Positions 13,587 through 17,268 of a DNA stretch of 64,000 nt are shown here, in pieces. The stretch is from Palleronia salina (GTDB lineage Bacteria > Pseudomonadota > Alphaproteobacteria > Rhodobacterales > Rhodobacteraceae): contig NZ_FQZA01000002.1 of NCBI RefSeq assembly GCF_900141995.1, positions 379,501 through 443,500 of the forward strand, given 5' to 3'. The stretch's first letter is position 1. The number at the start of each line of letters is the position of its first letter. A program made the position numbers and the translations under genes. The notes under the pieces were generated by a model. That model had not been told where the DNA came from and made no database searches. It worked only from the letters and a program-made list of their open reading frames with translations.

Positions 13587-16466
13587 ATGGCGTATCAGAC
13601 ACGCGGGCGGGACCCGCTGTTCGACAGCAACACCCAGGCGGCGCTGGAACGGCGCGGGCGCGAACTGCTGGGCCTTCTGCTGATTGGTTTGGGCGTCGCC
13701 GTCGCGCTGATGCTGGCCAGCTATCGCCCAGACGATCCCAGCTGGCTTTCGGTCACCTCCGAGCCGGCGCGCAACCTGCTGGGGCGCATGGGCGCCTCGA
13801 TCGCGTCACCGCTGAACATCATCGTGGGCTGGGGCGCCTGGGGCATCGCGCTGACCTTCCTGGTCTGGGGCGGGCGGTTCCTGATGCACCGCGGCGAAGA
13901 GCGCGCCCTGTCGCGCGCCGTCTTCGCACCGATCGCCATCGCGCTGGGCTCGGTCTATGCCTCGACCCACGTGCCGGGTGCCGACTGGGGCCATTCCTTC
14001 GGTCTGGGCGGGCTGTTCGGGGATACCGCGCTGGGCACGCTGCTGGGCGTGCTGGGCGTCTCGGGGGCCTTCGGGCTCAAGGCCACGGCGTTCCTGCTGA
14101 TGGTCGCGACGCTGGTGATGGGCGGCTTCGTTCTGGGCGTGACCCGGGCCGAGCTGCGCCAGATCGCGGGCTGGCTGCTGCGCGGCATCGTGATGACCTA
14201 TGCCTCGCTGATGACCGCGCTGGCCGCCGGGTCTCGGACCGTGGGCGCCGGCGTGGGCGCGGGGGCCGCCGCCGCGGCACAGGCACGCGCCCGCCGGGCC
14301 GAGCGCGCCGCCGAACGCGAAGCCGCGCGCCAGGCCGCTCTGCTGGAACCCGAGACGGACGGCCCGGCGCAGCCTCGCCCCGTTCTGCGCGCCGCCCCGC
14401 CGCGCCCCGTCGCGAACGAGGACGAGGAGCTCTTCGGAGAGGACGAGGACGATTATGCCGATCAGCCCCGCGCCGGTATCCTGGGGCGGCTGACCGGCGC
14501 CCTGCGCACGTCCGACGCGGCCGCCGAGCAGATGCCGCCCCTGTCCGGTGAGGACCGCATCAAGTCCAAGATCTCCGATGTCATCAAGGCCCGGGCGCGC
14601 AGCCAGCCGGTGCTGACGGCGGGGCACGCGCGTGGCGCCGAGCCCTTGCTGGCGCGCCGCCATCCGCGCGGCCCGCAACCGTTGCGCATCGACCAGACGC
14701 CGCCGCTGACGGCGACGGACGCCCCCCAGGCCGAGCCGGTCGAGGATGACCTGAGCGCGCGTGAAATGCCCGAGCCCGAGCTGGTCGCGCCCACCCCGCA
14801 CCGCCCCGAACCGCAGCCGGCCCCCCGCGCCGCGCCGCCGGCCCCGCAGACCAAGCCCGTGGTCCAGCACATGAACCGCAAGGCCCCCGCGCCGTCGACC
14901 AAGGCCAAGGACGAGGCGCAGCCCAAGCTGGCCTTCGACGACCAGAGCGCGGCCTACGAGCATCCGCCGCTGTCGCTGCTGACCAGCCCCGACACGGTGA
15001 CGCGGCATGTTCTGAGCGACGAGGCGCTGGAAGAGAACGCGCGGATGCTCGAGAACGTGCTGGACGATTACGGCGTGAAGGGCGAGATCGTCAGCGTCCG
15101 CCCCGGCCCCGTCGTCACCATGTACGAGCTTGAGCCGGCGCCGGGTCTGAAGGCCAGCCGCGTTATCGGCTTGGCCGACGACATCGCGCGATCCATGTCG
15201 GCCCTGTCGGCGCGGGTTTCGACCGTTCCGGGGCGCAGTGTCATCGGCATCGAATTGCCCAACGAGAACCGCGAGATGTGCGTCCTGCGCGAGATCCTGG
15301 CCACCCGCGATTTCGGCGACGGCAACCACCGCCTGCCGCTGGCGCTGGGCAAGGATATCGGCGGTGACCCGGTGGTCGCGAACCTTGCCAAGATGCCCCA
15401 CCTCCTGATCGCGGGGACGACCGGCTCGGGCAAGTCGGTGGCGATCAACACCATGATCCTGTCGCTGCTTTACAAGCTGACACCGGACGAGTGCCGGATG
15501 ATCATGATCGATCCGAAGATGCTGGAACTGTCTGTTTATGATGGGATTCCGCATCTTCTGAGCCCCGTCGTCACCGACCCCAAGAAGGCGGTCGTCGCCC
15601 TGAAATGGGTCGTTGGCGAGATGGAGGACCGGTACCGCAAGATGTCCAAGATGGGCGTGCGCAACATCGAGGGCTACAATGGCCGCGTGCGCGAGGCGCT
15701 GGCCAAGGACGAGATGTTCGAGCGGACGGTCCAGACCGGGTTCGACGACGACACGGGCGAGCCGATCTACGAGACCGAGGAGATCCAGCCCGAGATCCTG
15801 CCGTTCATCGTCGTCATCGTGGACGAGATGGCCGACCTGATGATGGTCGCGGGCAAGGAAATCGAAGCCTGTATTCAACGGCTTGCGCAGATGGCACGGG
15901 CCAGCGGCATCCACCTGATCATGGCCACGCAGCGCCCGTCGGTGGACGTCATCACCGGCACGATCAAGGCGAACTTCCCGACGCGGATCAGCTTCAGCGT
16001 GACCTCGAAGATCGACAGCCGCACCATCCTGGGCGAGCAGGGGGCCGAGCAGCTTCTGGGCATGGGGGACATGCTCTACATGGCGGGCGGATCGAAGATC
16101 ACCCGCGTGCACGGGCCGTTCTGCTCGGACGAGGAGGTCGAGGAAATCGTCAACTATCTCAAGAGCTTCGGTCCGCCCGAATACATGTCGGGCGTGGTCG
16201 ACGGCCCCGCCGAGGACAAGGGCAGCGACATCGACGCGGTGCTGGGTCTGGGCGGCGGCGACGGCAATTCCGAGGACGAACTGTACGACAAGGCGGTCGC
16301 CATCGTCATCAAGGACCGCAAGTGCTCGACCTCGTATATCCAGCGCAAGCTGGCCATCGGCTACAACAAGGCTGCACGGCTGGTGGAGCAGATGGAGGAA
16401 GAGGGCGTCGTCAGCAGCGCCAACCACGTGGGCAAGCGCGAGATCCTGGTGCCGGAACCGACCTGA
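13587..16466 (+). CDS. ftsK: DNA translocase FtsK
   Basis: A 959-residue septal DNA pump that clears chromosome termini and activates XerCD recombination. The N-terminal 200 residues hold several transmembrane helices. A long Pro/Ala/Glu-rich linker runs to about residue 460. The RecA-like motor has Walker A in [13 protein letters not shown] (about 609-621) and Walker B in [13 protein letters not shown] (about 740). The C-terminal gamma winged-helix domain (about 895-959, [20 protein letters not shown]) reads FtsK-orienting sequences. All parts are intact. Confidence 0.97.
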
Positions 16467-16508
16467 GGGGGCGCGCAACCGCGGCGCGGGCCGTCCTGTC
16501 CACGATCT

Positions 16509-16664
16509 GTGCACGGATGGTGCCGCGGTCGTGCCCCTAGCGTGCGCCCCGCGTGCCGCTTCCGTGCGGCGGGGGTGCACCGGCAGGCCCATGATGTCGG
16601 ACCGGCGGCCTAGATCGTGCACGGGGCGTGCACCGGACGTGCCGACGCGAAGACGACAATGTGC
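16509..16664. repeat. Array of GTGC motifs at 11-bp steps, non-coding
   Basis: This lies in a 322-bp gap between ftsK and dps that has no credible gene. GTGC starts at 16509, 16520, 16531, 16542, 16553, 16564 and 16575, seven times at exactly 11 bp. After an interruption it resumes at 16617, 16628, 16639 and, skipping one unit, 16661. The seven bases between motifs vary freely, though GTGCAC(C/G)G recurs. The step is close to one DNA helical turn, so the motifs lie on one face of the duplex. Eleven is not a multiple of three, which argues against a protein repeat. I know of no named element with this form. Confidence 0.7.
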
Positions 16665-16732
16665 ACCTGGGCCATTGGGGTTGAATACTGAAGGCGCTCG
16701 CCGGGACACGGGATCTGCGCCTTGCGGGGTGC

Positions 16733-16770
16733 AAAAACGAGAACGGCCCGCCGAGGGCGGGCCGTTTCGT
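16733..16770. terminator. Bidirectional intrinsic terminator between ftsK/array and dps
   Basis: A 10-bp stem ACGGCCCGCC / GGCGGGCCGT with a GAG loop (16743-16765). On the plus strand it is followed by TTCGTCTT; on the minus strand by TCTCGTTTTT. It can end the dps transcript and any plus-strand RNA that crosses the GTGC array. Confidence 0.8.
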
Positions 16771-16788
16771 CTTAAGCGGTCGTGACGC

Positions 16789-17268
16789 TTACTGCTTGCC
16801 GTTGGCGCCGATGAACCAGCAGTCCTTGTCCATCGTGCGGCTGATCTCGACGAACAGGTCTTCGCTGTCGGGGTCGCCGGCCTCGTCGGCGGTCTCGGCG
16901 GCCTTGCGGATCATCTCACCGCATTTCAGGAACCGGTCCTTCAGCGCTTTGATGTGATCCTCGATGTGCTCCATGTCGGTCGGATACGGCTCGATGTTCG
17001 ACTCGGCCGCGACGACCTCGACGGTGCCTTTCGCCTGGCCGCCCAGGATGGTGCAGCGTTCGGCGATGGTGTCCTGCGCCTCGCGCAGGTTGTCGGCCAC
17101 GTCGTCCAGCAGCTCGTGGACGCCGATGAAGCCGGGGCCCTTCAGGTTCCAATGGGCCTGCTTCACGGCGAGGGCCAGGGCCGACACGTCGGCGAGGCGG
17201 GCGTTGAGCAGGTCGATGACCTTGTGGCGGGCCTGATCGTCGATTCCTTGAACAAATGCTTCGGGCAT
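16789..17268 (-). CDS. dps: Dps-family ferritin-like DNA protection protein
   Basis: A 159-residue mini-ferritin that oxidises Fe(II) with peroxide and shields DNA under stress. The inter-subunit ferroxidase ligands are all present at family spacing: His39, His51, Asp55, Asp66 and Glu70. The N-terminal basic tail is short, so DNA binding may be weak. It is oriented against ftsK and lolA, which are usually neighbours in related genomes, and ends at a bidirectional terminator. Its 190-bp upstream region is shared with lolA. Confidence 0.93.
   Translation of the reverse strand: MPEAFVQGIDDQARHKVIDLLNARLADVSALALAVKQAHWNLKGPGFIGVHELLDDVADNLREAQDTIAERCTILGGQAKGTVEVVAAESNIEPYPTDMEHIEDHIKALKDRFLKCGEMIRKAAETADEAGDPDSEDLFVEISRTMDKDCWFIGANGKQ

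Follow-up and report, generated by a model that had tools for sequence, protein, structure and literature searches.

Dispersed arrays of polar 11-bp DNA units in Palleronia and other Rhodobacteraceae, with a ribbon-helix-helix protein as candidate binder

The locus downstream of ftsK

The window analyzed in this study is a stretch of 64,000 nucleotides from Palleronia salina, whose genome is designated G000; the genome of its sister species, Palleronia pelagia DSM 26893, is designated G008. Between ftsK, which ends at 16466, and a convergent ferritin-like gene, which ends at 16789 and which we take to be Dps-like, the window contains an array of GTGC words at regular distances. The first array unit lies 31 bp beyond the end of ftsK. 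The features of the locus, with matches to the sequence models R1 and R2 described below, are as follows.

13587 to 16466, plus strand: ftsK (Pfam FtsK_4TM, FtsK_alpha, FtsK_SpoIIIE and FtsK_gamma, all above cut-off)
16498 to 16508, plus strand: degenerate first unit GTCCACGATCT (GTCC), in phase with the main run; the sister species has GTCCACGAAAT, also GTCC
16509 to 16585, plus strand: main array, seven 11-bp units starting GTGC; R1 match G000:C27:395998-396082, E 4.3e-12, this array being itself among the 26 from which R1 was built
16617 to 16649, plus strand: three further GTGC units, which form a second series on an 11-bp grid of its own; the sister species has the same sequence here; R2 match G000:C27:396116-396147
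16661 to 16671, plus strand: last unit, GTGC in the window and GTCGG in the sister species
16742 to 16766, minus strand: hairpin with a T-rich tail, scored as a minus-strand terminator
16789 to 17268, minus strand: ferritin-like gene, the convergent neighbor (Pfam PF00210, E 2.6e-24)

The seven GTGC words of the main array start at 16509, 16520, 16531, 16542, 16553, 16564 and 16575, a step of exactly 11 bp throughout. This series had been claimed in an earlier sequence-only reading of the window and was confirmed. GTGC occurs 376 times in the 64,000 nucleotides (1 in 170). When all fixed periods between 5 and 59 were scanned, the other 4-mers of the window formed runs of at most five (two 4-mers reach five), and each of 20 third-order Markov windows had a longest run, over all 4-mers and these periods, of four or five. 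The four further GTGC words of the same reading are present at 16617, 16628, 16639 and 16661; they are shifted by 42 bp from the main series and thus form a separate 11-bp grid of their own. The terminator that had been placed on the plus strand downstream scores on the minus strand, where the hairpin is likely the terminator of the convergent gene.

A tie to ftsK, also proposed earlier, was not borne out. The ftsK site is one of about eight array loci in G000; its array is present in G008, and in a comparison of 12 other genomes none carries an array next to flanking genes shared with this locus. Thus, ftsK is probably not linked to the array as a functional partner.

Distribution of the arrays

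An exact four-unit pattern matched 3 of 20 relatives searched, with two loci in G000, the same two in G008 and six in the congener G011, and allowing one or two mismatches gave additional array loci. The reversed-pattern control for these searches was not independent, since the unit CGTGC holds the reversed word in phase. The R1 model was a sequence-only model built from 26 arrays, 20 from G011 and six from G000 and G008. Among the 14 congeners searched, R1 gave 47 matches in G011 (about 30 loci; 20 of these arrays are in the model), nine in G008, five in G009, one each in G003 and G010, and none in the eight others. In the window's own genome, nine matches represent eight loci. In a family-wide search of 295 genomes, in which only 13 candidates were scored for each genome, R1 matched at least 30 at E 0.001.

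In other genera the arrays are shorter, mostly three to five units, such as GTGCACAACCC or GTACACCGGCT. The R2 model was built from 44 arrays, so part of the matched arrays had been used in building it. R2 gave 55 matches in G011, 47 in G310, 34 in G037, 19 in G302 and seven in G000, some arrays being counted on both strands. Behind these matches lie at least 25 loci in G310, at least 24 in G037 and at least 17 in G302, which belong to three other genera, and in G037 the arrays were found on all four contigs. R2 found no array in G009, although R1 has five matches there. Across a class-wide sample of 385 genomes, which includes at least five family members, R2 matched at 1e-5 only G000 itself. 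Two further genomes, G257 and G126 (loci L016 and L017), have true identical 11-bp tandem repeats beginning GTGC, which are apparently unrelated to the phased arrays.

Structure, constraint and age of the units

A weight matrix from 29 loci, in which some arrays were pooled on both strands, gave the unit G T (A/G) C (A/G) (C/G) N N N N C. A direct-repeat test gave an exact step of 11 bp, about one helical turn, with 3 to 13 units per array; the 20 G011 arrays examined have 8 to 13 units, with strict phase up to 13. The arrays start sharply, several of them, as judged by eye, immediately past a stop codon or terminator.

Each unit consists of a constrained core of about 6 to 7 bp, (C)GTRCRS, and about four free bases. 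Across 55 units aligned between G000 and G008, positions 1, 2, 4, 5 and 6 had no changes and position 3 had three, while positions 7 to 10 had 25 and position 11 had two. A wider recount of 67 units, which includes the window's second series with a last unit changed at several core positions, found 8 changes in 402 at positions 1 to 6 and 28 in 268 at positions 7 to 10 (p 4e-6). The sequence-only reading had taken the units for a series of phased motifs and not for copies of a tandem repeat, and the kept positions 1 to 6 and unconserved positions 7 to 10 agree with that description. A lack of such series in close relatives, with the region evolving neutrally, would have told against it; arrays are present in G008, G011 and others, and the core is constrained, so that the reading was not refuted.

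Grouping of 131 array loci from 13 genomes by flanking genes gave 17 groups common to more than one genome, 14 of them across genera (raw count). For example, arrays are shared across genera inside valS (G011, G037, G310), at chorismate mutase (G011, G091, G302) and at lpd (G011, G310). A group of common array loci at a cold-shock gene may rest on paralogues. The array sites are thus old, being common to different genera. At one locus where G000 and G008 carry an array, G004 is shorter by about 128 bp.

The valS array lies in frame within a variable loop in the three genera (L042:735-4022 in G011, L188 in G037 and L197 in G310), and the peptide it encodes before TVN.WI looks alike in G011 and G037, which points to an old shared insertion. 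Another array occupies the beginning of bchM, immediately behind bchL (L104, G000 C7:40859; L091 in G008; L122 in G011), where it would lengthen the N-terminus of the methyltransferase.

Gene context and orientation

The 131 loci comprise 115 in gaps between genes, nine inside a predicted ORF and seven that could not be placed. A protein-coding repeat was rejected on these counts. The 115 gap arrays lie in 30 convergent, 67 co-directional and 18 divergent gaps, and 176 control gaps of at least 60 bp from the same loci divide into 24, 102 and 50. The convergent to divergent ratio is therefore 30:18 for the arrays against 24:50 for the control gaps (p 0.0015). In 20 co-directional gaps the array was oriented with the genes in eight and against them in 12. 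In addition, a consensus fold was computed from 26 arrays; just one of its 12 pairs shows any double change, so no RNA covariation was found. Orientation unrelated to the flanking genes and the lack of RNA covariation indicate that the arrays act as DNA.

Array orientation was also compared with replication, the leading strand being inferred from local 20-kb GC skew. This comparison covered 58 stretches (20 from G011, 17 from G302, eight each from G000 and G204, and five from G009), with some G011 and G204 arrays left out. In G011, the array-richest congener, array polarity agrees with skew in 19 of 20 stretches, the exception having a skew of -0.0003. After correction for gene direction the agreement is again 19 of 20, with a different exception (mean share of co-directed genes 0.53). 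Where the corrected skew exceeds two standard errors, agreement is 16 of 16 in G011, 4 of 4 in G204, 3 of 4 in G000, 2 of 3 in G009 and 4 of 7 in G302. The window's own stretch agrees with the corrected skew. Over all G302 stretches, agreement is 13 of 17 with raw and 8 of 17 with corrected skew. Replication orientation is thus clear in G011 alone, suggestive in others and not clear in G302. Among the matches listed for contig C31 of G003, which carries arrays with a GYCSG core (see below), all are on the minus strand, again suggesting polarity.

A ribbon-helix-helix protein linked to the arrays

One group of common array loci, spanning five genomes, holds a gene of the BrnA/DUF4415 family of ribbon-helix-helix (RHH) proteins. 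All five genes have a co-oriented array 65 to 127 bp upstream; since these genes were found as array neighbors, the informative part is the uniform distance and the co-orientation. In the window's genome the gene lies outside the window, at G000:C9:52111-52374, and the window's own array has no RHH gene as neighbor. A frame downstream of the G000 RHH gene (L308:2-889, contig C9) looks transposase-like by eye.

A profile of the five proteins, A3, was searched in 36 genomes and had matches in 25 at E 1e-6. These include nine of ten array-bearing genomes outside the genus, G267 being array-bearing without an RHH match, and six of 12 family genomes without R1 matches. A blind set was formed from eight further matches with E 1e-15 or better that were found regardless of arrays and lie in array-bearing genomes other than those of the profile and the sister species G008. 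Seven of the eight have three or more consecutive in-phase GTRC words within 215 bp upstream (G124, G310, G149, G302, G295, G091 and G279b), and the eighth, G279a, has a variant with ATGCAC units. The same upstream test was passed by 23 of 1028 background genes, taken from 20-kb stretches mostly chosen around arrays. The RHH loci examined leave out a third match in G279 and a second in G037, and the genomes compared are related, so these counts are not independent. Pfam PF14384 (BrnA_antitoxin) was above cut-off in all 12 RHH proteins scanned, five from the first group and seven others. The sequence-only reading had suggested looking for a matching DNA-binding protein in genomes with the array, and this RHH protein is the putative binder.

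Loci from genomes without R1 matches (G022, G028a and G035) have no upstream array, nor do three loci that appear by eye to be BrnT-BrnA pairs (G001a, G204b and G028b). A search of the RHH profile against PDB sequences at E 1 gave no match, and no common partner gene was recognized beside the RHH gene among neighbors listed without full annotation. The RHH homologue of G295 (G295:C74:6670-6921, L319) has an array about 80 bp ahead of it and is reported with in-frame stops, though arrays are plentiful in that genome. In two genera without GTRC matches, short AT-rich 11-bp repeats were seen by eye before RHH homologues, TTTCATAACTC-like in G020 (L320) and CATATG-like in G032 (L324). The linkage of RHH genes and arrays may thus be wider than GTRC.

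Other cores and a second paralogue

Three congeners with at most one R1 match each, G003, G006 and G002, have 11-bp arrays with a GYCSG core before the RHH homologue. A model of this core, R3, was built from six stretches of four arrays of these genomes, so a few of the matches there exist by construction. R3 gave 31 matches in G003, 13 each in G006 and G002, none in G000, one in G011 and at most four in the remaining genomes. The 13s each include one match that looks like coding sequence (L353 and L354). Three new G003 matches have 10 in-phase units each, and one of them ends at the 3' side like the array before the RHH gene. The dispersed GYCSG arrays of these three genomes fit the prediction from the core of their RHH-gene array. 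Of the 14 congeners, seven possess a homologue at E 1e-18 or better, and each of these has at least five R1 or at least 13 R3 matches; the other seven have at most one R1 and three R3 matches, the cut-offs having been chosen after the counts were seen.

The protein changes together with the core. At the first residue of the presumed DNA-contact strand, a position which we assume from RHH structures to contact DNA, Arg is found in 13 proteins with GTRC-type arrays and Lys in three with GYCSG arrays, although the lineages behind this match are not independent. The residue alone does not set the core, because the core differs for another Arg protein, that of G032, and no array accompanies three Lys proteins.

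A second RHH paralogue has its own 11-bp array of the GTAGGAGTCCC type in G005 (L325), G010 (L326) and G002 (L331). These GTMGG arrays go with His, His and Gln at the first contact-strand residue. G010, which has only the second paralogue, has one degenerate array, at a locus where G003 also has one. A cold-shock gene and a ParA-type gene lie near the second paralogue in all three genomes, and the ParA-type gene passes the NCBIfam ParA_partition cut-off. ParA was considered as a general partner and rejected. A ParA_partition ATPase is found in all 14 congeners, with or without arrays, four array-bearing genomes gave no match in the same search, and an in-phase run of at least three known-core units lies near just 2 of 26 ParA loci, by a strict test that misses two-unit runs. 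ParA presence is therefore uncorrelated with GTRC arrays.

Comparison with known systems

The closest parallels were sought among systems with repeated or dispersed sites. ParR proteins are typically RHH proteins; on the direct repeats of parC, to which they bind, they seed a segrosome in the form of a solenoid, and the ParR of plasmid R1 is described as requiring at least two 11-bp repeats (PMC9426499). The present system resembles the ParMRC system of this Escherichia coli plasmid in pairing an RHH protein with directly repeated 11-bp units, to which binding is here predicted, and in having the cognate RHH gene adjoin an array, here at one array per genome. It differs in that many sites are scattered over the chromosome, the RHH protein is of the BrnA family, and no ParM was recognized among the partly annotated neighbors listed for the array system.

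MatP of E. coli is an RHH-containing organizer of Ter with a couple of dozen dispersed chromosomal sites, and its site matS, found in the terminus region only, consists of one short palindrome. An RHH-containing protein and dispersed chromosomal sites are common to both systems; here, however, the sites are polar multi-unit arrays and occur on all four G037 contigs. The octamers of KOPS lie scattered and are recognized by FtsK gamma. Like KOPS and other architecture-imparting sequences, the units are short polar motifs, with a leading-strand skew that is 19 of 20 in G011 and not clear in G302, and with few sites elsewhere. They differ from KOPS in having no GGGNAGGG-like octamer, a GTRC or GYCSG core with 11-bp phase, and tens, not hundreds, of multi-unit arrays with a candidate binder of their own.

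The array-linked protein shares with BrnT-BrnA toxin-antitoxin systems a match to Pfam BrnA_antitoxin above cut-off, but in the array-linked genes examined the array occupies the upstream place of brnT. Of 29 loci, G001a alone gave a match to a BrnT-like motif, a weak test because the motif missed the BrnT seen by eye at G204b. Boxes of the OmpR/PhoB family (PhoB, Streptomyces PhoP) and alphaproteobacterial LexA and CtrA boxes are direct repeats with an 11-bp step, those of PhoB having about seven conserved and four free positions. The arrays share direct repeats at this step with the OmpR/PhoB-family boxes, which serve promoter regulators; no such gene was recognized beside the arrays. A PhoB- or LexA-type binder, suggested by the 7+4 layout, was set aside once the RHH linkage emerged. 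A DNA gyrase wrapping site, considered because 12 units make about 130 bp, was dropped because arrays of other genera have three to five units and the array is not symmetric. Finally, TAACTGA heptamer repeats of Beggiatoaceae and cyanobacteria are likewise dispersed intergenic direct-repeat sets, many in number and with no binder proven; they differ in being 7-bp units mostly just upstream of start codons, and no 11-bp phase is mentioned in the part of the source available (PMC4679880).

Interpretation

We consider it probable that the arrays are a dispersed family of polar 11-bp-phased sites, bound head to tail by their own orphan RHH protein in the manner of ParR on parC, for chromosome organization. 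The array of the window would be one member of this family. One RHH dimer would sit on each unit and cover about 11 bp, with neighboring dimers bound cooperatively side by side, and with this coverage 4 to 12 units would nucleate one short nucleoprotein filament. An RHH protein on 11-bp direct repeats is the ParR-parC arrangement, from which cooperative head-to-tail binding, short filaments and autoregulation would be expected, and the array ahead of the RHH gene probably lets the protein control its own expression. Filaments spread over the chromosome would serve its organization or segregation, a role suggested by the dispersal of the arrays, their avoidance of divergent promoters, their survival inside a coding gene and the replication polarity in G011. 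The sequence-only reading had proposed a protein that covers one face of the DNA cooperatively. Cooperative coverage is also our best reading, but "one face" is only roughly right: B-DNA turns every 10.5 bp, so that sites exactly 11.0 bp apart drift around the helix unless binding keeps the DNA at 11 bp per turn.

A global transcription regulator was weighed against this reading. The RHH protein would then repress or activate array-adjacent genes through an operator network, and the array before its own gene does resemble an autoregulatory operator; some arrays placed just ahead of start codons, for example at chorismate mutase and leuD, also speak for such a network. However, gaps with divergent promoters hold fewer arrays than expected (18 of 115 arrays, against 50 of 176 control gaps) and convergent gaps hold more, some arrays lie inside coding sequence as in valS, and no common function was recognized among the neighboring genes, so that we regard this explanation as unlikely. 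The empty site in G004, about 128 bp shorter than the G000 and G008 locus, would suit a mobile or selfish element, that is, a non-autonomous, replication-strand-biased insertion kept or spread by the RHH protein or an unseen enzyme. In-frame presence within the ValS loop, 11-mer words that recur across loci, leading-strand polarity in G011 and the transposase-like frame near the G000 RHH gene are of the same kind. Such an element is nevertheless rather improbable: neither target duplication nor terminal repeat was seen by eye at the single empty site compared, phase and core persist in copies that have otherwise diverged strongly, as would not be expected of dead copies, and sites common to several genera must be old. 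A linked enzyme may nonetheless have escaped notice, as most of the neighboring genes were listed rather than annotated.

Two further explanations carry little weight. The plus strand from 16467 to 16790 folds better than its shuffles (z -3.4) and GURC can pair with GURC, as would fit the small RNA with regularly spaced GUGC units proposed in the sequence-only reading, or an mRNA 3' element. The orientation of the arrays relative to transcription is mixed, the covariance check suggested with that proposal gave a double change in only one of 12 consensus pairs in 26 arrays, and the window has no Rfam match at gathering thresholds; the RNA reading is thus very improbable. A decayed 11-bp minisatellite without function is the least credible explanation of all. 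Some words do recur within one array, and true identical 11-bp tandem repeats exist in G257 and G126, but a phase that stays strict for as many as 13 units, conservation that depends on the position in the unit, with 7 to 10 unconserved, and the link of the arrays to one gene family all argue against it.

The reading as head-to-tail sites of an RHH protein can be stated more fully. It would then be a hitherto undescribed ParR-like chromosomal system in which the orphan protein builds short polar filaments on 8 to 30 dispersed arrays that mark the direction of replication along the Rhodobacteraceae chromosome. The core and the first residue of the beta-strand would change in concert from lineage to lineage, Arg going with GTRC, Lys with GYCSG, and His or Gln with GTMGG. 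We offer this fuller version tentatively, as possible rather than probable.

Significance

Our literature search, in which few subscription journals were covered, found no description of these arrays or of such a role for BrnA/DUF4415 RHH proteins. The pieces are of known kinds, and their combination appears to be new. To our knowledge, little is known of chromosome organization and segregation in Rhodobacteraceae beyond ParABS. The results provide a concrete candidate pair of protein and sites, the sites being predicted to the single base, in Palleronia pelagia DSM 26893, a strain available from a collection. They also provide a natural series for how a DNA-binding protein and dozens of sites shift specificity together, and a case in which a protein of an antitoxin family has apparently been recruited as a chromosomal site-binding protein.
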